The translations under genes and the position numbers were made by a program. Below are positions 3,240 to 53,852 of a stretch of 64,000 nucleotides of DNA, in pieces. The first letter of the stretch is position 1. The number at the start of each line of letters is the position of its first letter. The notes under the pieces are model-generated. The model worked only from the letters and a program-made list of their open reading frames with translations, ran no database searches and was not told where the DNA came from. Origin of the DNA: Candidatus Acidiferrales bacterium (GTDB lineage Bacteria > Bacteroidota > Ignavibacteria > Kryptoniales > JAKASW01); the NCBI GenBank assembly GCA_035515795.1, contig DATJAY010000004.1:186001-250000 (forward strand). The letters run 5' to 3'.

Positions 3240-5690
3240 TTACTTTGCATCGATCACGACTGTTGATCCGTTTAAACCATCCGATGTTGCCTCGAGTTTG
3301 ATTTGTCCGCTCTTCTCCGTTGACTGTACCACTACGAGTGCTAAACCGTTAAATGCTCTCCGGTAATCTGCTTTGAACGAATCGTGGTCCGTCTCGGAGC
3401 CGTTGTCAACGCCCGCTATTTTGCCCTCGCCTGAAATCTTAAAATGAATTAAGTTGTGCGCACCAGGCACCAATGTTCCTTTATCATCGAGAACCTTCAC
3501 GGTTACGAATGAAAGGTCTCTTCCGTCGGCAGTGATTACTTTTCTATCAGGCTCCAGGACAATTTTCGTGGGTTGCCCGGCCGTTACGGCTGAGTCTGTC
3601 ATGACTTCATTGCCTCTATGTCCTACTGCCTTCAGTGTTCCGGGTTCATAAGTGATTCGCCACATCAAGTGCAGCTCGTCACCGGTTTTCTTTTTTGTTC
3701 CGAGCGACTTGCCATTGAGAAACAGCTCGACCTCGTCGCAATTTGTGTAGACCCAGGCGTCGATCGTTTGACCTTGCTTCCAGTTCCAATGCGGGAAAAG
3801 ATGCAGCACGGGCTTGTTTGTCCACTCACCCTGATACATATAGTAAACGTCTTTTGGGAAACCTGCGAGGTCCATGATGCCAAAATAAGAGCTGCGGGAC
3901 GGCCAATCATAAGGTGTTGGCTCGCCGAGATAATCGAAGCCCGTCCAGATATACATTCCCGATACGAAATCATATTTCTTCACGAGACTCCATGCCTCTT
4001 CGTGCGTCGCGCCCCATGGTGCGCTGACATTGTCGTATGCGGAGACCGTGTTGTCGGGATTGCCCGCTGTAAACGGTAAGTCCCAGCGGATCGGCCAGCG
4101 TTTAATGCTGTCGGAAGGCATGTCGTAATGACCGCGTGTCTCCAGCGCTGAGGTGGTCTCGGAACCGATAAGTTTCTTGCCGGGGAATTTAGCCGGGAAG
4201 AGTGAGTACTCGTCCTGGCCGTAACTAAAGCCGACCATGTCCAGGGCGCCCGACCGTATCAAAGGATTGTCCGGAGTCCGATCGTTACAATTTGAGGTGA
4301 TCGGACGCGTCGTATCGAGACTGCGGATTATACCGGCCAATTCTCTGGAAATATAGTCCCCACTGCTATCTTTGTGGTCCCACTGTTCGACGATTTCATT
4401 TCCGATGCTCCAGATGAAAACGCTCGGGTGGTTCCTGTCGCGCAGAACCATGTCCTCGATGTCTCTCCTATGCCATTCTGCAAAGTCAAGATGGTAATCG
4501 TATTTTGTTTTTCCTTTCATCCACATGTCGAAAGCTTCATCCATCACGATGAAACCCATCTTATCGCACAAGTCGAGAAGTTCGGGTGCAGGAGGATTGT
4601 GAGACGTCCTTAGTCCGTTGCATCCCATCGATTTCAAAATCTCAAGCTGCCTCTGCAGAGCGCGTGTGTTGATCGCTGAGCCGAGGCACCCCAGATCATG
4701 GTGGTCGCAGATGCCCAAGATTTTCAGGTGTTTGCCGTTCAGAAAGAATCCCTTTGCGCTATCAAATGTAAACGTTCTAATTCCAAATGTCGTTACATAT
4801 TTATCAGTTATCTTACCCTCGGATTCTACCGTCGTAATGGCATCATATAAGACCGGGTTGTTGACCGACCACAGTTCGGGATTTTCAATGCCAAGACTCT
4901 GAGCGACTTCATAAGTGGAATCCTTTGGGATGACGACATCTGATTTTGTCGTCGCCACTTCCTTGCCGCTTCCATCCGTCAATATGGTGGTCAGGGTTAT
5001 CGTTTCGTTTTGCTGTAATGCATTTCTGATTTTTGTCTTAACTGCGACTTTTGCGGATTGCCCGGTGACTTCAGACGCCGTGATGAATGTGCCCCAATGA
5101 TCCACGAATACTTTTCCGGTCGTCACAAGCCATACGTTCCTGTAAATTCCTGAACCTGAATACCACCGCGAGTTCGGCTGCTGAGAATTATCCACGCGCA
5201 CCGCCAACACGTTCTTATCATTTCCGTATTTAAGAAACGGCGTAAGTTCATATTGAAATGAGGAATATCCATAAGGACGTTTGCCCAGATAGTGACCGTT
5301 GATCCAGACTTCGCTGTTTCTGTACACGCCGTCGAATTGAATAAAGGTCAGCTTGTCTTTGTCGGACGTTGGAACGAGAAAAGTCTTTCTATACCATCCT
5401 ATGCCGCCAGGCAAAGCGCCTCCACCGACTCCTGCTGGATTGTCTTTTCTGAATTGTCCCTCGATACTCCAATCGTGCGGCAGATCGAGCAACCTCCATC
5501 GTGAATCGTCCAGGCCCGGGTTCTGTCCGTCTTGCACATCGCCGAGGTTGAAGTGCCAGTCTTTGATGAAGAGTTCCGACGTCCGTTGTTGTGCGGAAGA
5601 GAAGGAACTGAGGATCAGTAACGATATCGAGGTGATGAAAAAGCCATAGAGCGATGGACCGCATTTGATCTTTGATTCTTGAATCTTCAT
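3240..5690 (-). CDS. Exported GH2 beta-galactosidase, Bacteroides type
   Basis: An 816-residue glycoside hydrolase family 2 enzyme, predicted to release beta-linked galactose (or a related sugar) from oligosaccharides. A signal peptide covers about residues 1-34 and ends in SSAQQ. The sugar-binding jelly roll is at about 40-195 and the Ig-like domain at 200-308. The TIM barrel (about 312-610) carries the general acid/base E432 in WSIGNE and the likely nucleophile E511 in LIGSETTSA. C-terminal beta domains of the DUF4982/GH2-C5 type follow. GGGAG seven bases before the ATG supports the start. It is read divergently from the acyl-CoA synthetase and ends at a strong terminator. The layout matches periplasmic GH2 enzymes of polysaccharide utilisation loci; with the nearby GH31 gene it fits xyloglucan side-chain removal (inference). 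Exact substrate is uncertain. Confidence 0.93.
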   Translation of the reverse strand: MKIQESKIKCGPSLYGFFITSISLLILSSFSSAQQRTSELFIKDWHFNLGDVQDGQNPGLDDSRWRLLDLPHDWSIEGQFRKDNPAGVGGGALPGGIGWYRKTFLVPTSDKDKLTFIQFDGVYRNSEVWINGHYLGKRPYGYSSFQYELTPFLKYGNDKNVLAVRVDNSQQPNSRWYSGSGIYRNVWLVTTGKVFVDHWGTFITASEVTGQSAKVAVKTKIRNALQQNETITLTTILTDGSGKEVATTKSDVVIPKDSTYEVAQSLGIENPELWSVNNPVLYDAITTVESEGKITDKYVTTFGIRTFTFDSAKGFFLNGKHLKILGICDHHDLGCLGSAINTRALQRQLEILKSMGCNGLRTSHNPPAPELLDLCDKMGFIVMDEAFDMWMKGKTKYDYHLDFAEWHRRDIEDMVLRDRNHPSVFIWSIGNEIVEQWDHKDSSGDYISRELAGIIRSLDTTRPITSNCNDRTPDNPLIRSGALDMVGFSYGQDEYSLFPAKFPGKKLIGSETTSALETRGHYDMPSDSIKRWPIRWDLPFTAGNPDNTVSAYDNVSAPWGATHEEAWSLVKKYDFVSGMYIWTGFDYLGEPTPYDWPSRSSYFGIMDLAGFPKDVYYMYQGEWTNKPVLHLFPHWNWKQGQTIDAWVYTNCDEVELFLNGKSLGTKKKTGDELHLMWRITYEPGTLKAVGHRGNEVMTDSAVTAGQPTKIVLEPDRKVITADGRDLSFVTVKVLDDKGTLVPGAHNLIHFKISGEGKIAGVDNGSETDHDSFKADYRRAFNGLALVVVQSTEKSGQIKLEATSDGLNGSTVVIDAK

Positions 5691-7807: not shown

Positions 7808-10624
7808 TTAGTAAAGAGCCACTGTTTTCTTCCTGCCATCATACTTTACAACTTTGTCAGCCTTCTCCGTAGTATCCACTCCCGTTCCATGATTCGGCGA
7901 GACGACCACGATATTAAATGTTCTCGTCCTCATCATTCCTGGAAATTTGCCTTGGCGTTTACCGATTGTGAGAGTATGCGTGGAATCAGCCCACTTAAAT
8001 TCGATCGTGGAGTAAATTCCCTTTTCATAATCGTAGTTGTCGTTCTCATCCTCGTAAAGAGTAAAGTTCGCATCCGCACCTGTGTAAACACGGAGCTCGA
8101 TAGGATCGGCAAACTTTTCGGTTGAATATTGCATGAACGGTCCCATGGGAATAATCGAACCTGTCCTCACGAAAAGTGGAATCTTGCCGATGGGCGCGTC
8201 AGCAATGACGTCCCGGCCGCCTTCGTATTTTTTGCCGGTCCAGAAGTCAAACCAGCCGTCGCATTTCGGCAAATAGACTTTCGCAGCCTTCGGCCTGTCT
8301 TCATGGATTTGTTCCTTGGCAAATATCGACGGTGTCTTCCAGTAGAGTTCCATGTGGGCCGCACCTGGAGTTGCATTTTCGGTTTCAAGCACAAATTTGT
8401 ACTCTGTTCCGGCTGTCAACGCTACGGTGTCAGTGTATTGCTCGACGCTGGTATAGACTATCGGAAGTTGTTTACCATCAAGAATGATCCTTTTTCGATC
8501 ATAGCTTCTCAAGTGAAATTGATACTTGCCGGTCTCTTTCGGGATTAGTTTTCCTTCCCAACTTATCGAGAATGAAGAATCTGTAACATAGCTCGGTCTT
8601 CCTGTGGAATACCAATTAATATTTATGTCCGGTTCAACTTCTTGCTTTGTCACGATCATATGTTTGCTATCGCTGCAATATGTTGCGAGTATGCCCGCCT
8701 TGCCGTCATTTGTCTTAAAGTATTCCGGCCCGATCAGAACGCTTTGTTCAGGAGGTCGGTAATACATCCAATCTGTAACGGGTGTAACCATGATTGATGG
8801 GCCGAACATGAATTGGTTGTCAATGCCATAGGTCGTTTTATCTGATTCGAAATCCATCGGAAGTCCGCGCATCATGGTATATCCTTGACTCGTGACTTCC
8901 CATGCGAGCGAGTAAATATAGGGAAGGAGTCGGTAGCGCAGGTTGTCGAACTCAAGCATAGGCTCTGTGAATTCGCCGAATTCCCAGATCTCTCGCGGAG
9001 TTTCCGAGCCGTGTGCGCGGAATATCGGACTGAACGCACCGAACTGGAACATGCGCGCGTAGAATTCCTGGTACGCCGGATCCTTCCCGCCTCTGTTGAA
9101 GACGCCGCCGTATGCTCCGAGCACAAATGCTCCGATGTCGAATGTGTAGTAGGGGATACCTGCCATACAATGATTAATACCTGCTGAAATCTGGTCGCGA
9201 TAAATCTTCCAGTCTGCACCTATATCGCCAGTCCATGTTGTGGCTGCATTTCGTTGCTGGCCGGCATATGTCGATCTCGTAAGTATGTAGAGGCGCTTGT
9301 CCGCGAACTCTTTTCTATATGTCGAGTACAAATCATCCGTCATCGCGAGCGAGAATGCATTCAAGTATCTTGCCCATGTTCCCAGATAATTATTCCCGAC
9401 TCGTTTCATTTCGTATTCTGTGGAACCGACATTGTTGGCATTGATCAGATCAGGCTCGGTTGAATCGATCCATAGTGCATCGACGCCCTTTGACAGCAGG
9501 CCGTTCTTCAAATACTTCCAGTAAAGTCTGTTCGCACCCGGGTTGTACGCATCGTAATATTTAAACCCGCCCCAACCTATCGGCGAATAAAGGAAGCCAT
9601 GCTTCTCCATGTCCTTATAGATCATGGTATTAGGTCCTAGGGCAGGCCAGATTGAAATCATGAAATGAAAATGCATGTCATGAAGACTATCGATCATCCC
9701 TTTGGGATGCGGGTACGTCGTCGAATCGAAAAACATTCCGCTCCAGTTCTTCGCGCCGCCCCAGTAATCCCAATCCTGAACGATATTATCGATTGGCATT
9801 TTCAACTCGCGGTATTTCCTCGCGATCTCCAATACTTCTTCGCGAGTTGCGTAGTGTTCTTTACTTTGCCAATATCCATAAGCCCACTTGCCATACATGG
9901 GCGCGCGCCCGGTGATCATGCGGTATCCCGCGATGACGCTGTCCATGTTGTCACCAGCGATGAAATAGTAATCAATGTTGTCCCCGACATCGGACCATAA
10001 GGACATGTTTTTCTTGCCGTCGTCGTTGAAAACAGTCTTGGAGTAATTATCCCAGAGTATGCCGTAGTTCATGGCCGAAACAAGAAATGGAGTGATCGCA
10101 TTCGTGTTGGTTTGAACTAATGTGACTGTGTCGCCGCGGTAGTTCATGTAACCATGCTGGTCTGCGCCGAGGCCGTAAATTCCTTCATCGGAAGTAACGT
10201 TAAAGTCCTGTCTTACGTTGAACGAAGAATCTGTGCCGTAGAGGACCGGTTCCATGCCGCATCCATCTTCTTCAAGTATTTCCTTATCATTGGTGTCCGA
10301 AAATTTCACCTCGCCGTTTGTGAGTGAAATGATGGCTTTCAAGCGACTCGATGAAATCACGATACTACTGTCCTGCTTTTGATTTCCAACCTCTATCTTC
10401 TGTGGCTGGTTCATGATAACTGAAAGGCTTTTCTTCTTGTCAGTGCCTGCCGTTGACCACTTCTCGATTCTTAAGATGTTTGGTGCATAAAATTGAGCCT
10501 TTACATTTAGACCCTGGGTGGTTATGATAACACCGTTCGTGATTTGTTTAACACTTTTTTCCTGCGCAAAAGAAGTAAGTTTCAGCAGCACTGATAGGCA
10601 GATTATTATCCTAACTGATTTCAT
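7808..10624 (-). CDS. GH31 alpha-xylosidase-like hydrolase with PA14 insert
   Basis: A 938-residue exported glycoside hydrolase family 31 enzyme. The signal peptide begins MKSVRIII and ends near SFAQ. The N-terminal beta-sandwich spans about 30-235. The catalytic barrel (about 240-600) has the likely nucleophile D387 in DALWIDSTEPD and acid/base D467 in WTGDIGADW. A PA14-like domain (about 635-766, containing LRSYDRKRIILDGKQ) sits between the barrel and the C-terminal beta domains. The WIDSTEPD form resembles alpha-xylosidases more than alpha-glucosidases. A TTG six codons upstream keeps the frame, but the ATG used here puts the signal peptide at the N-terminus. With the GH2 beta-galactosidase nearby it fits trimming of xyloglucan oligosaccharides in the periplasm (inference). 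Other alpha-glycoside substrates are not excluded. Confidence 0.9.
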   Translation of the reverse strand: MKSVRIIICLSVLLKLTSFAQEKSVKQITNGVIITTQGLNVKAQFYAPNILRIEKWSTAGTDKKKSLSVIMNQPQKIEVGNQKQDSSIVISSSRLKAIISLTNGEVKFSDTNDKEILEEDGCGMEPVLYGTDSSFNVRQDFNVTSDEGIYGLGADQHGYMNYRGDTVTLVQTNTNAITPFLVSAMNYGILWDNYSKTVFNDDGKKNMSLWSDVGDNIDYYFIAGDNMDSVIAGYRMITGRAPMYGKWAYGYWQSKEHYATREEVLEIARKYRELKMPIDNIVQDWDYWGGAKNWSGMFFDSTTYPHPKGMIDSLHDMHFHFMISIWPALGPNTMIYKDMEKHGFLYSPIGWGGFKYYDAYNPGANRLYWKYLKNGLLSKGVDALWIDSTEPDLINANNVGSTEYEMKRVGNNYLGTWARYLNAFSLAMTDDLYSTYRKEFADKRLYILTRSTYAGQQRNAATTWTGDIGADWKIYRDQISAGINHCMAGIPYYTFDIGAFVLGAYGGVFNRGGKDPAYQEFYARMFQFGAFSPIFRAHGSETPREIWEFGEFTEPMLEFDNLRYRLLPYIYSLAWEVTSQGYTMMRGLPMDFESDKTTYGIDNQFMFGPSIMVTPVTDWMYYRPPEQSVLIGPEYFKTNDGKAGILATYCSDSKHMIVTKQEVEPDININWYSTGRPSYVTDSSFSISWEGKLIPKETGKYQFHLRSYDRKRIILDGKQLPIVYTSVEQYTDTVALTAGTEYKFVLETENATPGAAHMELYWKTPSIFAKEQIHEDRPKAAKVYLPKCDGWFDFWTGKKYEGGRDVIADAPIGKIPLFVRTGSIIPMGPFMQYSTEKFADPIELRVYTGADANFTLYEDENDNYDYEKGIYSTIEFKWADSTHTLTIGKRQGKFPGMMRTRTFNIVVVSPNHGTGVDTTEKADKVVKYDGRKKTVALY

Positions 10625-10821
10625 TTTGATCTCGCTTGCCAATTTTGGTTTCCCGGGCTAATGCATTCGGCAAATGCAATATAGACTATCGAAAGTGATT
10701 GAGCAAATGTAAGTGGATTGATACTAACAAAGTATGTAACTTTAAATACATCCGTTGTCATCGGGTCCAATTTTGTTCTTTTGAATTTCTAAACAACGTC
10801 ATAAGATAATTAGGAGGCTTT

Positions 10822-12318
10822 GTGAGAAGAAAAATTGAGATACAACAGGAAGAAACGAATCCTTCGAGAAGAAGATTCATTAAGACGGTCGGCACAGCTG
10901 CCGCCGGTTTGCTCGTTGTGCCATATTTGAAGCCATCCGGAGTATTCGCTTACAACCATAAGAGCACCGCTTCATATCTTGCAACAGTCGCGATCACCAA
11001 TACAACGGGATTTGCTGCCGACACGTACGTTTATGACGATGCCACGAACGGGGGTGTCAAGCAGAGGGTGCAATATCTTCTCGGCCAACTAAGCGGGATT
11101 TCCAGCTTGTTCAGCAGCGGTAAAAAAGTTGCGATAAAAATAAATTTAACCGGCGGTTCGGGGAACGCTACGAGCAAGGCGTTGGGCAGTTATACAATTA
11201 TCCAGGCTATGTGGACTCATCCGGCAGTTCTTCAGGCAGTGGGCGAGTTCATTCTCAGCTGCGGTGTTAACCCTGGAGACCTTTACATCGTGGATTCTCT
11301 CTGGGATACGGGATGGCAGAGCTCGGGGTCGACAGCGCCCTTCGGTTCCAATGACAGTTTCGGCTACAAGGCAGTACAAACCGCCTTGGGATGTAACGTG
11401 GTCGATCTGAATGACACAACTGCGTCCAACATTACGCAGATATCGACCGGAAGCAATTACTTCCATTTTCCAAACTTAACCATGAACAAGATATTGCAGG
11501 GAGTCGATGTTTATGTTTCCGTTCCCAAATTGAAGCAACATTCGGCTGCCGGACTTACTTGTTCACTTAAGAATCAGGTCGGGACTGTTCCCAAATCGCT
11601 GTATACAATAACGGGCGACAACGGACGTAGGGGAAAACTCCACCATGCGACAAGCACCGGTACAGAGGGGAATTATTTGCCCGAATCCATTTGTGATCTT
11701 AATGCGGCCCGCCCTGTTCATCTCGCCGTGGTGGATGCAATAATGAATGCAACAGGCGGAGAGGGCTCCTGGTGTGCGAAATTTGCACCGTGCTCGACAC
11801 ATGCGTTGATCGCAGGGACGGATCCCGTTGCGACCGATAGCATTGGAGCGAACCTGATGGGGCTTGATTGCGAGGCGACGACTCTTCCGTTGCCTGCACC
11901 GATGACGGATGGTACCGTGACGGTCAATGCATGCGATAACTATCTCGATCTCCTGCGCACAAAAGGTGTTGGCACAAATCAGCTGAGCGAGATCAACGTC
12001 GTCGGGGACGGGAAGACCATGGCCGTTCGTCCGAATGCGGAGGAACAGCAGCCGGCTGGGTTCAAATTGTGCGCCAATTTCCCCAACCCTTTTAACCCGT
12101 CGACGATTGTCGTCTTCTACTTGCCGAAAGCCGAACATGTCACGCTCAAAATCTACGATATTACCGGACGTGAAATTGAGACCCTTGTGGAAGGATCCGT
12201 TCCTCCGGGTGAGCATCGTTTACACTGGAACGCAACCGGACTGGCAAGCGGAGTATATATATGCAGGATGCTGGCAGGAAATTTCTCTGAATCAATCAAG
12301 ATGGTCTATCAGAAATAG
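10822..12318 (+). CDS. DUF362 protein with Tat signal and T9SS tail (copy 1)
   Basis: A 498-residue exported protein with a GTG start six bases after AGGAGG. The N-terminus holds a twin-arginine motif SRRRFIK followed by a hydrophobic stretch ending near FAY, so it should cross the inner membrane folded. The middle (about 50-400) is a DUF362-type domain with VSVPKLKQHS and SLKNQVG; the family is uncharacterised, and no CxxC iron-sulfur motif is seen here. Residues 420-498 start with FPNPFNPST and end KMVYQK, a T9SS type A sorting domain, so final export to the surface is expected. The next gene is a close paralogue with the same layout. Activity is unknown. Confidence 0.9.
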   Translation: MRRKIEIQQEETNPSRRRFIKTVGTAAAGLLVVPYLKPSGVFAYNHKSTASYLATVAITNTTGFAADTYVYDDATNGGVKQRVQYLLGQLSGISSLFSSGKKVAIKINLTGGSGNATSKALGSYTIIQAMWTHPAVLQAVGEFILSCGVNPGDLYIVDSLWDTGWQSSGSTAPFGSNDSFGYKAVQTALGCNVVDLNDTTASNITQISTGSNYFHFPNLTMNKILQGVDVYVSVPKLKQHSAAGLTCSLKNQVGTVPKSLYTITGDNGRRGKLHHATSTGTEGNYLPESICDLNAARPVHLAVVDAIMNATGGEGSWCAKFAPCSTHALIAGTDPVATDSIGANLMGLDCEATTLPLPAPMTDGTVTVNACDNYLDLLRTKGVGTNQLSEINVVGDGKTMAVRPNAEEQQPAGFKLCANFPNPFNPSTIVVFYLPKAEHVTLKIYDITGREIETLVEGSVPPGEHRLHWNATGLASGVYICRMLAGNFSESIKMVYQK

Positions 12319-12408
12319 CTCAACCGCAGCTTGCTGTCGAAATAAGTCGGACGAATCAATCTCCGAGAGTTCATCCGGGCTTTTTGAGAAACTGGTTTAG
12401 GAGGGTTC

Positions 12409-13887
12409 ATGAAAAAGAAAGAGAATGAAATTATATCAGAAATGAATTCCTCGCGGCGAAGGTTCATAAGGAACGTTGGCACGGCGGCTGCAGGCCTGCT
12501 CGTGGTGCCATACCTAAAACCGTCAGGAGTTTTTGCTTACAATCATAAGCGTACATCGTCTTACCTTGCAACAGTCGCGATCACCAATACCAACCCGAAA
12601 AGTGGCCCTACGCCTGCCGACAGCTATGTTTACGATGATGCTAGCGGTGGTGTTAAACAAAAAGTGCAGTACCTTTTCGATCAGCTTGGAGGAATTTCCG
12701 ATCTATTCAGTGCTGGGAAGAAGGTTGTAATAAAGATAAACTTGACGGGCGGATCAGGCTATGTAGGAAATTCAATGCTGAAAGGTGTTCCCATAACGGA
12801 AGCGATGTGGAGTCATCCTGTAGTCGTTCAAGCAGTGGCACAACTGATCATTGATGCAGGTGTAACTGCAAGCGACATCACCATAGTGGACAGTCTGGGA
12901 AGCGGAGACTCTTTCAGCAATTCCGCTTTTCAAGGTTATGTGGATGTTAAGAATGCCCTGGGATGCGGCTTAGTTGACATCAGCAAAGGCACTTTTGTCA
13001 ATATCTCCACCGGCAGCAGCTACTTTAATTTTCCGTCTCTAACCATGAATCAGATTTTAAGAGATACTGATGTCTATGTCTCAGTACCGAAATTGAAGCA
13101 GCATGCCACAGCAGGTTTGACATGTTCGCTCAAGAATCAGGTTGGGGCAACGCCGCAATCATCCTATGAATTGCCAGGCTACACTTATCGGCGGGAACGG
13201 CTTCACCATCAAGCGGGCACTGACTCGGAATGGAATTATTTGCCCGAGACTATTTGTGATTTGAATGCCGCCCGGCCGGTCCATCTTGCTGTAGTCGATG
13301 GAATAAAAAACGCAAAAGGCGGCGAAGGAGCTTGGAACCCAAATTTTGTGCCGTTTCAAAGTCATGCGCTTTTGGCAGGAAAAGACCCTGTAGCGACTGA
13401 CAGCATCGGCGCGAATGTTATGGGTCTGGACTGCGAAGCAGCGACTCTCACGTTACCGGGACCGTTGACGGACAACGGGGTTTCATCCACGGAGTGCGAC
13501 AACTATCTTTATCTTCTCAACAACAAAGGTGTTGGCACAAACCAGCTAAATGAGATCAACATTGTCGGCGACGGGGCGAATCTGATTACATCGGTCCGAC
13601 CAAATCTCGATACAACACAGCCTGCTGACTTCAAGCTCTGTGCCAATTTTCCCAATCCGTTCAATCCATCGACGATAATCGTCTTTTATTTGCCTCGAAA
13701 CGAACATGTTACCCTAAAAGTTTTCGACGTCACTGGTCGGGCGATTGAGACCCTTGTTGACGGAGAGGTCCCTGCCGGCGAACACCGATTGCAATGGAGC
13801 GCGACCGGCTTGGCAAGCGGAATATATTTGTGCAGGATGGAAACTAAGGATTTCGCCGAAACGATAAAGATGGTTTATCAGAAGTAG
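12409..13887 (+). CDS. DUF362 protein with Tat signal and T9SS tail (copy 2)
   Basis: A 492-residue paralogue of the preceding protein, separated from it by 90 bases and preceded by AGGAGG. The Tat motif reads SRRRFIR and the following signal region is almost the same as in copy 1. The DUF362 core keeps VSVPKLKQHA and SLKNQVG, and the T9SS tail occupies residues 414-492. The two copies diverge mostly in the region around residues 60-200, suggesting an old tandem duplication with separated roles. No metal or catalytic motif can be named with confidence. Copies 1 and 2 are probably one transcript. Confidence 0.9.
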   Translation: MKKKENEIISEMNSSRRRFIRNVGTAAAGLLVVPYLKPSGVFAYNHKRTSSYLATVAITNTNPKSGPTPADSYVYDDASGGVKQKVQYLFDQLGGISDLFSAGKKVVIKINLTGGSGYVGNSMLKGVPITEAMWSHPVVVQAVAQLIIDAGVTASDITIVDSLGSGDSFSNSAFQGYVDVKNALGCGLVDISKGTFVNISTGSSYFNFPSLTMNQILRDTDVYVSVPKLKQHATAGLTCSLKNQVGATPQSSYELPGYTYRRERLHHQAGTDSEWNYLPETICDLNAARPVHLAVVDGIKNAKGGEGAWNPNFVPFQSHALLAGKDPVATDSIGANVMGLDCEAATLTLPGPLTDNGVSSTECDNYLYLLNNKGVGTNQLNEINIVGDGANLITSVRPNLDTTQPADFKLCANFPNPFNPSTIIVFYLPRNEHVTLKVFDVTGRAIETLVDGEVPAGEHRLQWSATGLASGIYLCRMETKDFAETIKMVYQK

Positions 13888-46489: not shown

Positions 46490-49165
46490 ATGAAGCATCT
46501 ACTTATTTTGTCGTTCTCTGCCTCATTTCTTGGTCTAATAGGACCGGCATTCGGGCAGTCCAATGACGATTGCCTGACTTGCCACTCTGATTCCTCGTTG
46601 ACAATGGAGAAAAGTGGAACAGCGGTTAGTCTTTATGTCAATGAGAAAAGCTTTAAGTCGTCCGTTCATGGGGACGCGTCCTGCGTCGATTGCCATGCGG
46701 GGTTTGATCCTAATAGCACTCCTCACAAAAAAGAAATAACTCCGGTCGATTGCGGCAGCTGCCACGATATCCCATTAGCAAAAGACACCAAACAAATGAA
46801 AGGACTGGCACACTCCAGGCTTCAATGTTTCGATTGTCATGGCAAACATGACATACAATCAACAGATAAAATCGCTGGAGACAGAGAATGTCTATCGTGT
46901 CATTCGGCGGAAAAGATTTTCCTTACATCTGCACATGCAAGAGCTGACATAAATAAGAATAAAATGGGCTGCGAATCGTGCCACGATAAGGCCCACGAGG
47001 TAATGGCTGTGACGCCGGGGCGATGGGCGGCTGAAGACACTCTTTGCGCTCGGTGTCACGGAGGAATTAATTCTGCAATCGAGGCAGGAGTCCACAAGAA
47101 GGCTTTTGTCAGCGGATCTTTGACTTGTGTGAGCTGCCACGCCGCGCACGGGACGCAAGTTTCTAAAGCAATCATCTCTCAGAACGCTTGTTTCAAGTGC
47201 CACACCGACAAAAGGCTTCTTGTTGCGGGGCGATTGTCAGGCAGCGAAATCTCTCTCGTGCAATCGTACGATCACAGCATACACGAGGAGTCGGTAAGAA
47301 AAAATGGGAAGGGTGCGACCTGCATAGACTGTCATGGCTCGCACACGATCAAACCTGCAAGCGATCCGGCGTCTCCGGTTAACCGTGCAAATATCGTCGC
47401 GACATGCGGAAGATGTCATGCAGACATCGAAACTCATTATCTGAATTCGTCGCACGGTCAGGGCTTCAAGAACGGGCTTGCTGTTTCTCCGGTCTGCACT
47501 GATTGCCACAATGAACATAGTATTAATTCGATAAGCGATCCAAACTCGCCGGTGAGCCGCGCTAATGAACCCAAGATATGTCTTGATTGTCATATTGGTA
47601 ATGAGGCGGTGTTAAAGATCGTTGGGGTTTCGCCCGCCTTTCTGGAAAGCATAAAATACAGTGTTCATCTGGTTGCGCTTTCGAAAGGAAATCTAAAGGC
47701 TGCGACCTGCAGCGACTGCCACGGGGCGCATGATATGCTGCCCGCAGGAAATCCTCAGTCAAAAGTTTTCAGGAATAATATTCCCAGCACATGCGGACAG
47801 AGCGGCTGTCATCAAAATGTCGCCGCAAAATATTTCGATGGGATTCACGGCAAGGCAATTCTGGCGGGGAACAACAGCGCGCCGGTTTGCACGAACTGCC
47901 ACGGCGACCATCAAATATTGGCCCCCAGCAATCCGCAATCCACGGTTTCAAACGGAAATATAGTTCAGGTTTGTTCTCAGTGTCACGGTTCCGTCAGCCT
48001 AACACAGCGTTACGGTTTGCCTCAACAGACAGTGGGGAGTTACCTGGATAGTTATCATGGACTCGCCACGCAGGGCGGATCGACGACAGTTGCAAATTGT
48101 GCGAGCTGTCATGGATCGCACGACATAAAGCCATCCTCTGATCCGACGTCGCCAATCAACAAGGCAAACCTTGCCGGAACCTGCGGAAAATGCCATTCAG
48201 GCGCTGATGCACAGTTTGCTTCTGCTGCTGTCCACGTCTTGCCTGCTTCCAGGAACGATCCGCTGCTTTATTGGATTTCTCAGATTTACGTCGTGATGAT
48301 CGCAGGCATCATCGGACTTATGATTCTTCATAATATTTTTGATTTCACCAAGAAGGCAAAACGTAAGCTTAAAAAGCGGAGAAATCCATCATTCGAGCAC
48401 ATCCACTTTGAAGCTAGACTCCATACGAGAATGACAAAGTGGGAGATGGCCCAGCATTGGGGCTTGCTGATCAGTTTCACGCTCCTTGTTCTTACCGGAT
48501 TCATGCTGAGATTTCCCGATTCGTGGTGGGTGAAATCGATCCGCGCTGTCGGAGGGGGAGGAGAAACCGTGTTTGAACTCAGGAGTCTTGTCCACCGGAT
48601 GAGCGCAATCCTGCTGATTGCTACTGCTCTTGTCCACTTCTATTACATAATTTTTACAAAGAGGGGGAGAGAATTTATCCATGATATGATCCCGAGACTT
48701 AAAGATGCTCGTGACGTCAAGGATATTATAAAGTATTTCCTCGGGTTGGAAAATCAGCGGCCGAAATTCGACAGATTCAGCTACGTCGAAAAAGCTGAAT
48801 ATTGGGCCCTGATTTGGGGAACGGTGGTCATGGTGACAACCGGTCTGCTTCTTTGGTTCGACAATCTCTCGTTGGGGCTATTCACAAAACTTGGCCTTGA
48901 TGCTGCGACATTAATCCATTACTATGAAGCGATACTTGCTTCACTGTCGATTGTCGTTTGGCATTTATATTTTGTTGTGTTTAACCCTGATGTTTATCCG
49001 ATGAACCTTTCGTGGTTGTTCGGTACGATAACCGAAGAGGAGATGTTTGACGAACATCCCTTGGAATTAGAGCGGCTGAAAGAAAAAGAGGAAAGGGCAA
49101 ATGAAATCGTCGTCGAAAACGGAAATGAGACCCCATCGACGGAAGATGACAGCGTCGAGCGGTAA
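46490..49165 (+). CDS. 19-heme cytochrome c fused to cytochrome b membrane domain
   Basis: An 891-residue protein. After a signal peptide (ending PAFGQS) come 18 CxxCH motifs and one CGQSGCH (CX4CH) motif, about residues 27-595. From about residue 270 the motifs sit in repeated units marked by forms like SDPASPVNRAN before CGRCH. Five hydrophobic helices follow (about 600-850) with histidines in AQHWGL, VHRMSA, LVHFYY, IHYYEA and VWHLYF, the style of a formate-dehydrogenase-gamma or b561-like cytochrome b. This layout suits taking electrons from the quinol pool to periplasmic hemes. It is the first gene of the cluster. Direction of flow is not determined by the sequence. Confidence 0.93.
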   Translation: MKHLLILSFSASFLGLIGPAFGQSNDDCLTCHSDSSLTMEKSGTAVSLYVNEKSFKSSVHGDASCVDCHAGFDPNSTPHKKEITPVDCGSCHDIPLAKDTKQMKGLAHSRLQCFDCHGKHDIQSTDKIAGDRECLSCHSAEKIFLTSAHARADINKNKMGCESCHDKAHEVMAVTPGRWAAEDTLCARCHGGINSAIEAGVHKKAFVSGSLTCVSCHAAHGTQVSKAIISQNACFKCHTDKRLLVAGRLSGSEISLVQSYDHSIHEESVRKNGKGATCIDCHGSHTIKPASDPASPVNRANIVATCGRCHADIETHYLNSSHGQGFKNGLAVSPVCTDCHNEHSINSISDPNSPVSRANEPKICLDCHIGNEAVLKIVGVSPAFLESIKYSVHLVALSKGNLKAATCSDCHGAHDMLPAGNPQSKVFRNNIPSTCGQSGCHQNVAAKYFDGIHGKAILAGNNSAPVCTNCHGDHQILAPSNPQSTVSNGNIVQVCSQCHGSVSLTQRYGLPQQTVGSYLDSYHGLATQGGSTTVANCASCHGSHDIKPSSDPTSPINKANLAGTCGKCHSGADAQFASAAVHVLPASRNDPLLYWISQIYVVMIAGIIGLMILHNIFDFTKKAKRKLKKRRNPSFEHIHFEARLHTRMTKWEMAQHWGLLISFTLLVLTGFMLRFPDSWWVKSIRAVGGGGETVFELRSLVHRMSAILLIATALVHFYYIIFTKRGREFIHDMIPRLKDARDVKDIIKYFLGLENQRPKFDRFSYVEKAEYWALIWGTVVMVTTGLLLWFDNLSLGLFTKLGLDAATLIHYYEAILASLSIVVWHLYFVVFNPDVYPMNLSWLFGTITEEEMFDEHPLELERLKEKEERANEIVVENGNETPSTEDDSVER

Positions 49166-49517
49166 GATCAGTTCGAGTTTGAAGAAACACTTTGAATCGC
49201 TGGTGACAACGAGGATCAGCATCGTACTCCAAATGATGTACGCGCATCCCGACGAATTGGTTGATCTTGAAAGCGGCGAGAAATATATTTGCAGTGTCTG
49301 CGACCGTGAATACAAAAGGTGCGAAGTCGAACTCGATTACAGATGTGAAGTTGCAAGAAAGCTTGAAACCGAATTCAAGGAGCTTGAGCTTGCCTTAAGC
49401 AGGCTGCGTGGCGGGAATTATGGATTTTGCGAGAGATGCTATAAATTTATCGGGAAAGAAGAACTTGAGAGAATGCTTACTCGAACCGTCTGCGATTCAT
49501 GCGGCGGGCTGAGTTGA
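49101..49517 (+). CDS. DksA/TraR-type zinc-finger protein
   Basis: A 138-residue protein beginning inside the end of the cytochrome gene in another frame. The start is supported by GAGGAAAGG just before the ATG; it overlaps the cytochrome by 65 bases. The C-terminal part reads RLRGGNYGFCERC, then CDSC, the four-cysteine finger of the DksA/TraR family, but the coiled-coil acidic tip typical of DksA is short. An extra cysteine pair CSVC and two more cysteines lie at about 62-85. DksA proteins act on RNA polymerase, so it may regulate the cluster (inference). Overlap suggests coupled translation. Confidence 0.83.
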   Translation: MKSSSKTEMRPHRRKMTASSGKISSSLKKHFESLVTTRISIVLQMMYAHPDELVDLESGEKYICSVCDREYKRCEVELDYRCEVARKLETEFKELELALSRLRGGNYGFCERCYKFIGKEELERMLTRTVCDSCGGLS

Positions 49518-49594
49518 CATGAAACAACCCTTGTAAGATAAAGCAGTACCATTATTGAAAATGCAGTAGCACAAATGAAAACGGAGGTAACATC

Positions 49595-50146
49595 ATGAAA
49601 TCTGTAGCGTCAGTTTTGGTGATAATTTTATTTTCGGCGATCGTGTCGATCGCGGCCGACAATAATCATCAATATGTCGGTGTTCAGGTTTGCAGCATGT
49701 GCCATAAAACTGACAAGAACGGTCAGCAGTTTCAAAAATGGCAGGCAAGCAAACATTCACAGGCAATGAAAGCCCTCGAGACTGCCGACGCTGACAAGAT
49801 AGCGGCTGCCCACGGTGTGAAAGGAAAAGCCTCTGAAGCGAAAGAGTGCATAGAATGTCACCAGACTGCTTACGATGCGCCGGCTTCCTTGCTCGGCCCG
49901 AAGTTCAGCAAAGAAGACGGCGTACAGTGTGAATCGTGCCATGGTGCAGGCAACGACTACAAAGCGATGTCGACCATGAAAGACAAGCAAAAAGCGATTG
50001 CCGCAGGATTGACAGTTCTCTCGGTCGATGATGGCAGTGCCGAGAAACTCTGCGAAACCTGCCACAACAAGAAGAGCCCGACATTCAAATCTTTCGATTT
50101 TAAGAAGATGTGGGCCGAGATTGCTCACCCTGTTCCTAAGCAATAA
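49595..50146 (+). CDS. Tetraheme cytochrome c554-like protein
   Basis: A 183-residue periplasmic protein with a signal peptide ending near IAADN and four heme motifs: CSMCH, CIECH, CESCH and CETCH. The spacing and YVGVQVCSMCH opening match the cytochrome c554 family, with W-Q-x-S-K-H-S-Q-A as a conserved segment. ACGGAGGTAAC before the ATG is a strong ribosome site. It likely shuttles electrons between the membrane-bound 19-heme protein and the outer-membrane components downstream. Confidence 0.93.
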   Translation: MKSVASVLVIILFSAIVSIAADNNHQYVGVQVCSMCHKTDKNGQQFQKWQASKHSQAMKALETADADKIAAAHGVKGKASEAKECIECHQTAYDAPASLLGPKFSKEDGVQCESCHGAGNDYKAMSTMKDKQKAIAAGLTVLSVDDGSAEKLCETCHNKKSPTFKSFDFKKMWAEIAHPVPKQ

Positions 50147-50314
50147 GAAGTTTGTAAGTTCGGAAGAGAAGGAAGTGGAGTTGCTGGGAGGGCCGGCGTT
50201 GGCTGCGCCTGAGGTCATTATAGGCGAGGTGCATTGCGGCAGCGTCCTTCCGTTTACCCATTCGAACGACTTAACATCTTGTTTTTTCTTTGAGAACAAA
50301 AAGAGAGGTGGGCC

Positions 50315-51682
50315 GTGAAAAGTTTCTCTCATCGGTCAGCTATTCGCACTGAGCGCTCTGCTTTCAGCTGTCGGTTACCGGTTGATAAACAAGTGCTGTT
50401 GATGATATTTGCAGCCACTTTCCTTTTTGTTGATGCCTGTGCCCAGTCATTTAGCGGGAGATTCGTTACAACCTTTTATTCATACCAGCAGTACGATACC
50501 ACCAATACGTCGAAGATAAGTCTCCGCGGCTTTGAAGCTATGCAACTAAATTTTGGAACGGGCGATTATCAATTACATACCTACATTCTAGCGACGAACG
50601 ATTTCATAACAAGTCAACCAAACGATCCGCTGCTTCGAGCGGAGAATTTATACCTTGAGGCGCGCAACGTTGCCGATGCCGTTAATCTAAAGATCGGCAG
50701 GCAGCCGGTGTTTCAACAGGTGGGAATTTCTTCGTTTGATGGCTTGAGTGCCGATGCAAATTTCCTCGACAACAAAATTAGTCTCGTGGTTTTTGGAGGC
50801 TCGCTTCCTCCGGTTGATGAAAGGTTCAAGCTGAATTCTGATCTGAAAGATAACTTGGTGTCCGGCGCACAGGCGAGCTATTCGCCTTTTGAAAATTTCA
50901 GGATTGGCGGCGCCTATGTAGACAAGACATTTAAGCCGTCGAGCTACTACGCGCTCAGAAGAGACAGTATTGATGCGCCGAGCGACGTTCGTCAGGTATT
51001 GATAGACCCATCATCAGTGGCAAGTCAGTTCGTTTCCGGCGACGTTTTCTATTACACACAAGACGTTTCCGGATATCTCAGGCTGGATTACGACTTAAAC
51101 TTTGAGGAGTGGAATCGTACCGAAGTTTCTTTTCGTTATTCGCCGATAACCGCCCTATCTGCCGATGTCGGATATTTTCATCATGATTCGAGGTTGCCAT
51201 TCAACTCGATATTCTCAGTGTTCGACCATAGTGGTACTGACGAGTACGATTTTGGATTAAATTACTTTTTGATGAAAGATGTTTCTGCTTACGGCTCCGT
51301 CAATAAGATCTATTATTCCGGTGATAATTCAACCCAGTTTACAATTGGCGCGAACGTTTATTTGTTTAACCTGAACTTTTCTCACGATGATGGATTTGCC
51401 GGGAACCTGAACGGCGTAAGCGCGCAGCTCATCTATCCTTTCATGGACCGGAAGCTTATGCTGATTGCATCCGGTGAAATCACCGGTTATAAGATATTGC
51501 AGGCTGATTCTTTGCCCACAAGCCGCTTGTACAGCGGCTCGCTTGGCTTGACGTGCAGGCCCGTAAATCTTCTATCAGTTACCTTGCAAGCTCAATACTA
51601 TCAGGATCCGGTTTACAGAAACGACTTCCGCGGGTATCTGCAGGTGAGCTACTATTTCTTCAGTAAATCAGGTATGCAGTGA
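50315..51682 (+). CDS. Outer-membrane beta-barrel protein of cytochrome cluster
   Basis: A 455-residue protein without heme motifs. GTG start after GAGGTGGG. A long N-terminus with a hydrophobic stretch (about 27-43, ending DACAQS) acts as signal. From residue 45 on the sequence alternates hydrophobic and polar residues with aromatic ends of strands (FVTTFYSYQQYD, RLDYDLNFEEWN) and finishes in F (YLQVSYYFF near the end), the pattern of an outer-membrane barrel. Placed between cytochrome genes, it could be the porin of a porin-cytochrome conduit (inference). No named family was recognised. Its stop overlaps the upstream part of the next gene's ribosome site. Confidence 0.82.
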   Translation: MKSFSHRSAIRTERSAFSCRLPVDKQVLLMIFAATFLFVDACAQSFSGRFVTTFYSYQQYDTTNTSKISLRGFEAMQLNFGTGDYQLHTYILATNDFITSQPNDPLLRAENLYLEARNVADAVNLKIGRQPVFQQVGISSFDGLSADANFLDNKISLVVFGGSLPPVDERFKLNSDLKDNLVSGAQASYSPFENFRIGGAYVDKTFKPSSYYALRRDSIDAPSDVRQVLIDPSSVASQFVSGDVFYYTQDVSGYLRLDYDLNFEEWNRTEVSFRYSPITALSADVGYFHHDSRLPFNSIFSVFDHSGTDEYDFGLNYFLMKDVSAYGSVNKIYYSGDNSTQFTIGANVYLFNLNFSHDDGFAGNLNGVSAQLIYPFMDRKLMLIASGEITGYKILQADSLPTSRLYSGSLGLTCRPVNLLSVTLQAQYYQDPVYRNDFRGYLQVSYYFFSKSGMQ

Positions 51683-51693
51683 TGGAGGCGAGC

Positions 51694-52953
51694 ATGAGAC
51701 ATCTTGTGGTCTTGGGAGTCGTTTTTGTCGCAGGACTTGTGACTACTTCAAGCTTGTTTGCACTGAAAGATTCTCCGGAATCTGACAACCAAAAGCTCAT
51801 CAAATTTTCTCACTCTAAACACATAAACGATGTCGGCGTCGCGTGCGCTGATTGCCATACCGCGGTAATGACCAGTACAAAGGAGACGGATATTCTTCTT
51901 CCATCGATGGAAACATGTTACACCTGTCATGATCAGGCCACTACGAAGTGCGATTTTTGTCATACTTCTTCCGACAGTGCAACATACAAGGACCTTGTTC
52001 AAACGAGCGGTCCGGTTTTTTTCTCACACCAGCATCACGCGGGCGACTTGAAATTAAAATGCGAAACGTGCCATCAAGGGTTGGATAAAGTTGATTATGC
52101 GGAGCAGGACGCAAATGCTCTCCCAAAGATGGAACAGTGTGTAACATGTCATGGCCTTGTAGAAACGAATGTCAGGACGGACAAAGTTGATTATGTCGTG
52201 AAGGCGGCTCCTGGAGGGTGCGAGACCTGTCATAAAGACCTGACAAAACTAGTTCCGGCTTCTCATCGTGAGACAGATTTTGTGAGCCAGCACAAGAATT
52301 TCGTAAATGTGTCAGGGCCGCAAAATGACTGCAAATCCTGTCACAGCCCTGCCACTTGTCAGGAGTGCCATGATGCTTCAAACATGGCAAAGGATTTAAC
52401 ACCAGGACAGATCTATGTGCCGTCGACTCCGTCGCTTTCTCCATTGACGACGCACGATAAAACTACCGCGGAGAAAGTTCATCCCGAGAACTATCGGTTT
52501 ACACATTCCATCGACGCAAAAGGCAGAGAGAGCAACTGCTATACTTGTCATGATGAACGGGCCTTCTGTGTGGGATGCCATACTTCAAACGCAAATGGTT
52601 CGAGGATAGAACCAGTGTGGCACGAAGGCGGGAATTTCATAACGTTTGGTGTGGGCAGCGGCGGCGGAAGACATGCGCAATATGCCCGGAAGGATATTGA
52701 AAGCTGTGCGAGCTGCCACGATGCTCAAGGAGCAGACCCGACTTGCATAACATGCCACACCGATCCTGACGGGATAAAAGGGAACGACCCCCGAACTCAT
52801 GCGGCGTTTTTTATGCATGACGTTCAAGGAAGCTGGCACGACGACGCGGGAGCAGTCTGTTACACATGCCACACCGATCCGAATGCTCATCCAGGCGGCA
52901 AGCCAGGGATAGGGTTTTGTGGCTATTGTCACGGTAGTCATCCGGGAGACTGA
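51694..52953 (+). CDS. Periplasmic 14-heme cytochrome c
   Basis: A 419-residue exported protein with 14 CxxCH motifs, from CADCH and CYTCH near the N-terminus to CYTCH and CGYCH at the end. The ATG at 51694 is preferred because GGAGG lies six bases ahead; a GTG overlapping the barrel stop would give five more residues. The signal peptide ends near SLFALKD. Motif density is about one heme per 28 residues, as in class III-type multiheme wires. It follows the barrel gene directly and could sit in or near the barrel as the conducting part. Confidence 0.92.
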   Translation: MRHLVVLGVVFVAGLVTTSSLFALKDSPESDNQKLIKFSHSKHINDVGVACADCHTAVMTSTKETDILLPSMETCYTCHDQATTKCDFCHTSSDSATYKDLVQTSGPVFFSHQHHAGDLKLKCETCHQGLDKVDYAEQDANALPKMEQCVTCHGLVETNVRTDKVDYVVKAAPGGCETCHKDLTKLVPASHRETDFVSQHKNFVNVSGPQNDCKSCHSPATCQECHDASNMAKDLTPGQIYVPSTPSLSPLTTHDKTTAEKVHPENYRFTHSIDAKGRESNCYTCHDERAFCVGCHTSNANGSRIEPVWHEGGNFITFGVGSGGGRHAQYARKDIESCASCHDAQGADPTCITCHTDPDGIKGNDPRTHAAFFMHDVQGSWHDDAGAVCYTCHTDPNAHPGGKPGIGFCGYCHGSHPGD

Positions 52954-52955
52954 AA

Positions 52956-53852
52956 ATGAAAAAATATTTAGGCATTGGCCGTCTGTTATTTCCCGTCAAT
53001 TCGATTGTTGTCCTCGGGTTGATTTTTAGCTCCTGCAGCAAACTGCAAAATAATGTTTTGGCACCTCCGCAATCTCAGTCCAACATTCACCCTGTGGGCT
53101 GGGGGACACAAGGTTCCGCAAACTTTCATGGAACTTACATCAGGAACAACAATTATGACATGACAACATGCACGTCGTGTCACGGCAGCGATCTTAACGG
53201 GGGCATTGCGAAGCGTTCGTGCTATGATTGCCACGGCGGGACTAACGGCACCCTTGCGTGTAATACATGCCATGGCAGTGCTTTGAATGCTGCGCCGCCA
53301 AAGGATCTATCCGGCGACTCTGTCACAACAAATCCGACGGTTGGTGCACATCAAAGTCACGTCGCGACGAACAATTTTTTTGCAAACGTTTCCTGCTCAT
53401 CGTGCCACCTTGTTCCGGAGACCGCCGGTCCCGGACTACACCCGTTCGGCACCAAAGTTTCAGTTTTATTTTCCGGCGTGTCATTAACTCAGACAAATCT
53501 CCCGGGTTCCCGGTATTACGACAGCACCATGGCGACGGTGAAACCTGTGCCGATATTTAATTTTCAAACACTCCAGTGCTCGAACACCTATTGTCACGGC
53601 AACTTCAAGAACGGGAATAATTTTTCACCTAAGTGGACAGCCGTCGACGGAAGTCAGGATTCGTGCGGTTCATGCCATGGTTTACCTCCGCACGGTGCGA
53701 TTAACGGGATTGTCCCGGTTTATCAAAGTGAAAGTGCACAGAATTGTTTTCTTTGCCACGAGCCAATGATGGGACAGACCGGGATTCAAGACAAGTCCTT
53801 GCATGTGAATGGAAAACTTGAGCTGTACGGCAATTCTCAAGATTCATGGTAG
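52956..53852 (+). CDS. Heptaheme lipoprotein with CX4CH heme motif
   Basis: A 298-residue lipoprotein with a lipobox IFSSC (Cys 27). Heme motifs: CTSCH, CYDCH, CNTCH, CSSCH, CSNTYCH (CX4CH), CGSCH and CFLCH. The CX4CH plus CxxCH arrangement is that of the Geobacter OmcB-related family (GSu_C4xC__C2xCH). Those proteins sit on the outer membrane and take part in extracellular electron transfer. Its ATG lies three bases after the previous stop, with GGGAG before it. It would be the outermost piece of the path. Confidence 0.92.
   Translation: MKKYLGIGRLLFPVNSIVVLGLIFSSCSKLQNNVLAPPQSQSNIHPVGWGTQGSANFHGTYIRNNNYDMTTCTSCHGSDLNGGIAKRSCYDCHGGTNGTLACNTCHGSALNAAPPKDLSGDSVTTNPTVGAHQSHVATNNFFANVSCSSCHLVPETAGPGLHPFGTKVSVLFSGVSLTQTNLPGSRYYDSTMATVKPVPIFNFQTLQCSNTYCHGNFKNGNNFSPKWTAVDGSQDSCGSCHGLPPHGAINGIVPVYQSESAQNCFLCHEPMMGQTGIQDKSLHVNGKLELYGNSQDSW

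Follow-up and report, generated by a model that had tools for sequence, protein, structure and literature searches.

Two adjacent genes in the window, by which we mean the whole 64,000-nucleotide stretch of DNA analysed here, encode DUF362 proteins in which the conserved domain is flanked by a Tat signal in front and by a T9SS type A sorting domain behind, a combination that recurs in every close homologue we found. We propose that both are secreted, cofactor-bearing LarA-like enzymes that may act on sugar acids and would leave the cell by Tat and then by T9SS, and we put the probability of this explanation as a whole at about 0.45.

Architecture and conservation of the window pair

Both open reading frames are real and complete, and each is preceded by a strong ribosome-binding site, AGGAGG, at position 10812 for copy 1 and 12399 for copy 2 (Table 1). 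No terminator-like site was listed within the 90 bases that separate them. Upstream of the pair, genes for the GH31 hydrolase, an AMP-binding ligase and the GH2 hydrolase follow one another on the opposite strand, and a regulator-propeller protein is encoded downstream. Elsewhere in the window (46490-53852), gene starts with CxxCH motifs appear by eye to be multihaem-cytochrome-like.

Table 1. Features of the two window genes and of neighbouring glycoside hydrolase genes (positions in the window)
Feature	Position	Strand	Remarks
GH2 glycoside hydrolase	3240..5690	-	43-44% to the GH2 adjoining the family homologue in G184/G393
GH31 glycoside hydrolase with PA14	7808..10642	-	Divergent neighbour; profile match
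Copy 1 (W1), Tat-DUF362-T9SS tail protein	10822..12318	+	498 aa, GTG start
Copy 1 Tat signal, aa 15-43	10864..10950	+	TIGR01409; SRRRFIKTVG, VFA precedes mature part
Copy 1 DUF362 match, aa 103-343	11128..11850	+	PF04015
Copy 1 H240-x9-K250	11539..11571	+	Counterpart of L. plantarum LarA H174/K184 (catalytic His, NPN Lys)
Copy 1 T9SS type A sorting domain, aa 420-495	12079..12306	+	TIGR04183
Copy 2 (W2), Tat-DUF362-T9SS tail protein	12409..13887	+	492 aa, ATG start
Copy 2 Tat signal, aa 15-43	12451..12537	+	TIGR01409; SRRRFIRNVG
Copy 2 DUF362 match, aa 122-335	12772..13413	+	PF04015
Copy 2 H232-x9-K242	13102..13134	+	Motif as in copy 1 H240-x9-K250
Copy 2 H266	13204-13206	+	Possible third ligand; invariant in alignment
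Copy 2 T9SS type A sorting domain, aa 414-489	13648..13875	+	TIGR04183

The initial annotation had described two DUF362 proteins with Tat motifs and T9SS tails, and all three parts indeed scored over curated cut-offs. PF04015 matched copy 1 with an E value of 2.1e-29 and copy 2 with 3.5e-31 (103.4 and 109.2 bits, gathering score 24). The tails reached 34.6 and 34.5 bits against TIGR04183 (cut-off 23) and 29 bits each against PF18962 (cut-off 27). The leaders scored 22.4 (copy 1) and 16.9 bits (copy 2) against TIGR01409, whose cut-off of 16.7 copy 2 passes by 0.2 bits; with the Pfam TAT_signal model, copy 1 stayed under the cut-off and copy 2 had no listed match.

In the host genome (4.08 Mb in 39 contigs) we counted 142 T9SS tails (E ≤ 0.001) and nine Tat matches (E ≤ 1), six of the latter over the cut-off and the two window genes ranking at the top. 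These two genes were also the only reading frames with both signals; for the remaining seven Tat matches, no T9SS tail was listed in the same frame. The host encodes TatC as well as SprA (TIGR04189, joined score 885.8 bits, cut-off 200).

With the DUF362 portion of copy 2 as the query, a search across 395 genomes of the phylum yielded seven close homologues, spread over six other genomes and each with E below 1e-70. All seven possess leader, DUF362 domain and tail; the combination that the initial annotation had suggested looking for in other genomes does occur there. Since the combination is unique to the window pair within the host and complete in each homologue, we conclude that it did not arise by chance. 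In the alignment of these nine proteins, both leader arginines, the NPFNP motif, H232, K242, N243 and H266 (copy 2 numbering) are invariant, as are two cysteines, C283 and C363. The leader consensus reads S/C-RR-x-F-[LI], with RR in 9/9 sequences and variation at the positions around it.

Leader and tail patterns were also checked in 42 of the phylum's DUF362 matches. A more distant protein from genome G116 (L137) joins an RR leader and a DUF362 domain to a T9SS-type tail motif, as judged by pattern only, and several tail-less related DUF362 proteins have RR leaders too. The DUF362 proteins L138, L139, L140, L141, L143, L153 and L154 end in T9SS-type tails but have no RR leader; an N-terminal membrane-like segment is present in some of them. 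A wider contig scan returned matches to the tail peptides, with a convincing DUF362 domain at 0 of 80 loci (best E 0.2), and viral contigs held no relative. Among plasmids, copy 1 as the query recovered tails alone (6 records), a 312-aa DUF362 query recovered 3 records, and two other DUF362 subfamilies recovered none.

The genes had been taken for tandem copies, and they are adjacent and 65% identical (67% amino-acid identity over aligned codons). In the tree, however, copy 2 clusters with the genes of G393 and G184, two members of another taxonomic family (support 97/94), and copy 1 falls outside; the copies are therefore not sister genes, and a recent duplication is rejected. The comparison of selection between them, which had also been suggested, gave a dN of 0.25 with dS saturated and omega consequently not estimable. 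We infer that the copies are old paralogues, or that one was acquired horizontally, and that purifying selection has probably acted on them.

Likeness of DUF362 to LarA

No function of DUF362 was found in the part of the literature covered, in agreement with the initial annotation's remark that the family has no known role. The family nevertheless has relatives, as it shares the Pfam clan CL0471 with the LarA N-terminal domain (PMC11770544). LarA is one of the 2-hydroxyacid racemases/epimerases (PF09861) that depend on the nickel-pincer nucleotide (NPN); the nucleotide is bound through K184, R75 and H200, and H108 and H174 act as catalytic bases (PMC11770544). The window proteins belong with DUF362 by their PF04015 scores and the K-x-K-x-H...KN core common to both; they differ from it in the added Tat leader and T9SS tail, and match NCBIfam Npun_F2552 with 42 bits, far short of its cut-off of 500.

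Profile alignment of the nine window-type proteins with 12 LarA homologues of the phylum (hhalign) gave an E value of 5e-4 at a modest probability of 31%, with H232 and K242 falling on the LarA His and Lys, and a wider DUF362 set reached 5e-5, likewise at a modest probability (67%). Most other small DUF362 groups on their own had no significant LarA match in hhalign. The H-x9-K spacing is identical to that of LarA in 9/9 window-type proteins; it was present in 8/8, 2/2, 8/8, 5/5 and 2/2 members of five other DUF362 groups and in 0/6 of one further group, amounting to 34 of the 40 DUF362 sequences examined, and in 11 of 12 LarA proteins. The invariant H266, a possible counterpart of the LarA nickel ligand H200 in the profile alignment, sits 24 residues past K242, against 16 past the Lys for H200.

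No clear conserved counterpart of the phosphate-binding R75 or of H108, the second catalytic His of LarA, was seen in the DUF362 profile alignments, and neither Lar_N (PF09861) nor the Lar C-terminal domain was listed for either window protein at E ≤ 10. For these reasons we do not file the window proteins as LarA, from which they also differ in their predicted export and in that two genomes with the family are without LarB and LarC; from the clan and the His/Lys spacing that they share with it, they may nevertheless work in a LarA-like manner. The likely active site would then lie around H232, K242 and perhaps H266 of copy 2. AlphaFold2 gave a pLDDT of 30 and no usable fold for the two window copies. 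A PDB sequence search with copy 2 returned no match at E ≤ 1, and a PDB profile search returned weak unrelated matches and one T9SS tail (E 0.068), with no DUF362 relative among them.

DUF362 and the genes for NPN biosynthesis

According to PMC11796402, about 15% of the genomes analysed there combine larB, larE and larC with no homologue of larA, and the user protein is given as unidentified; an E. coli expression system is described in the same paper. Among the 395 genomes of our phylum set, 23 encode LarC and 22 LarB over the cut-off, and the host has both. Strict LarA (Lar_N, E below 1e-50) occurred in 11 phylum genomes, just two of them LarC genomes, and nine of the 11 were without both LarC and LarB over the cut-off. 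The LarA-type proteins of these nine genomes (L175, L177-L180 and L182-L185) have the full H-x9-K.

DUF362 genes were found in rows with the lar genes and without a larA in the row. The row in G062 (L205:6648-11970) consists of DUF362, NapH-like and NapG-like ferredoxins, LarC, LarE and LarB, and that in G145 (L206:6921-11230) of DUF362, LarC, LarE and LarB, with surrounding gene starts that look by eye polysaccharide-biosynthesis-like; in both, LarC, LarE and LarB are over the equivalog cut-offs. G141 (L207:8572-12872) has the layout of G145, as judged from LarB and LarC matches and ORF similarity; LarE appears there as a short reading frame in the ORF list. In a control on plasmids, a LarA-type gene lay no more than four genes away from LarC at 4/4 annotated loci, a fifth record carrying no annotation. 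Neither a LarA-type nor a DUF362 neighbour was seen at five further LarC loci inspected in the phylum, the host's included.

Co-occurrence was counted within the host class, which by hand count comprises 98 genomes, 20 of them with LarC or LarB; the p-values ignore phylogeny. DUF362 of any kind was present in 19/20 NPN-pathway genomes versus 29/78 others, a 370-aa DUF362 subfamily in 15/20 versus 0/78, and the window family in 5/20 versus 2/78 (P = 0.0036 without phylogenetic correction). Every genome with the 370-aa subfamily (L004, G000:C7:19187-19804 and relatives) also has LarC or LarB over the cut-off (15/15). A need for NPN in all DUF362 proteins is rejected, since 29 of the 48 DUF362 genomes of the class are without LarB and LarC over the cut-off; it is also contradicted by the control Bacteroides ihuae, which has DUF362 and no LarC, and by a Parabacteroides plasmid copy with no lar gene nearby.

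We read DUF362 as a possible NPN user because of the DUF362-lar rows without larA, the frequency of H-x9-K and the co-occurrence. Term searches found no paper that makes this link, nor did the part of PMC12611868 covered contain it for the terms tried. That DUF362 proteins are the missing NPN users where larB, larC and larE stand without larA, and that the window pair would be the first NPN enzymes known to be secreted, receiving the cofactor in the cytoplasm, leaving it in folded form by Tat and being passed on by T9SS, seems to us doubtful on present sequence comparisons, and we would likewise not expect the cofactor of these two proteins to be an NPN-type nucleotide. A cofactor of some kind is plausible, and gains indirect support from the clan link to LarA, the His/Lys spacing, the DUF362-lar gene rows and the host's LarB and LarC.

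It is also conceivable, if rather unlikely, that Tat was chosen for fast folding or for protection from Sec rather than for a cofactor, and that the DUF362 protein, once secreted, has a sugar or a simple metal ion as its ligand outside the cell. A cofactor is not a requirement of Tat, and C283 and C363 could make a disulfide or a metal site. Moreover, G184 (a single contig) and G393 carry window-family members with both H and K, and they have no LarC, and their LarB matches stay under the cut-off. This absence is not decisive, as nine of the 11 strict LarA genomes are without both as well, and a non-cofactor reading is at odds with the invariance of the LarA-like H-x9-K and with the general use of Tat for cofactor-carrying proteins in the literature covered.

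Improbable in our view is a cytoplasmic cofactor other than NPN in a LarA-like pocket, with the genome's LarB and LarC serving other DUF362 or LarA-like proteins. The host does have two further DUF362 genes and a LarA-like protein beyond the window pair, and the 370-aa subfamily, which it also encodes, follows the distribution of the NPN pathway much more closely than the T9SS-tailed family, but no alternative cofactor pathway was found linked. The LarA-like protein of the host (L129:697-2034) is related to 4nar, a structure titled putative uronate isomerase, and adjoins reading frames that by eye are transporter-like and 6-phosphogluconate-dehydrogenase-like.

Gene neighbourhoods and export route

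The homologue in G184 lies in a row of GH2, DUF362, an SGL lactonase with a T9SS tail, GH3, a GDSL esterase with a T9SS tail, GH127 and GH43, and similarity points to the same row in G393; by their predicted neighbours, both members are within hemicellulose-degradation clusters. The G014 homologue adjoins LacI, a xylose-isomerase-like protein, GH3 and a sugar transporter. Two URO-D-type proteins are near the G373 homologue, and an amidase and a transporter near that of G074; no carbohydrate theme was seen in the scanned part of the G255, G373 and G074 neighbourhoods. Lactonases yield hydroxy acids such as aldonates. Hydroxy acids of this type are the substrate class of the LarA-superfamily gluconate epimerases (PMC11770544), and this pairing with the lactonase neighbour leads us to guess that the substrate may be a sugar acid or a sugar from plant polysaccharide degradation. 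The most likely chemistry would be a redox reaction or an epimerisation, taking place at a hydroxy carbon of such a compound.

Export by Tat before T9SS, as the initial annotation supposed, is very likely from the leader sequences (RR in 9/9, TIGR01409); its further suggestion of a folded protein with a cofactor now has a candidate basis in the LarA-like site and the lar linkage. The TIGR04183/PF18962 tails, together with the host's SprA, are those of T9SS type A cargo. The leaders of both window proteins, in contrast, match the Tat model, whereas known cargo is described with a classical Sec signal peptide and enters the periplasm via Sec (PMC9251779; PMC5445135), and Tat followed by T9SS is thus an unusual route. 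No description of Tat-dependent T9SS cargo was found in the literature covered, which is weak evidence given that the matching literature is much larger than that portion. A Sec signal peptide that happens to contain RR, which would make these proteins ordinary Sec-T9SS cargo, is a very improbable reading of the leader: the Sec use of published cargo, the 0.2-bit margin of copy 2 and the failure to pass Pfam TAT_signal would fit it, but RR stays invariant amid varying neighbours in a S/C-RR-x-F-[LI] consensus, the window pair gives the genome's top two Tat matches, and related tail-less DUF362 proteins have RR leaders as well.

We therefore favor secreted LarA-like enzymes of the DUF362/LarA clan, which would fold in the cytoplasm and probably acquire their cofactor there, cross the inner membrane folded by Tat, and then be moved by T9SS over the outer membrane to the surface or the medium. 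DUF362 is a candidate for the user protein sought, as far as that paper was covered, in PMC11796402. If the window proteins are indeed Tat-routed T9SS cargo, T9SS can export proteins that were folded, and possibly loaded with a cofactor, in the cytoplasm.
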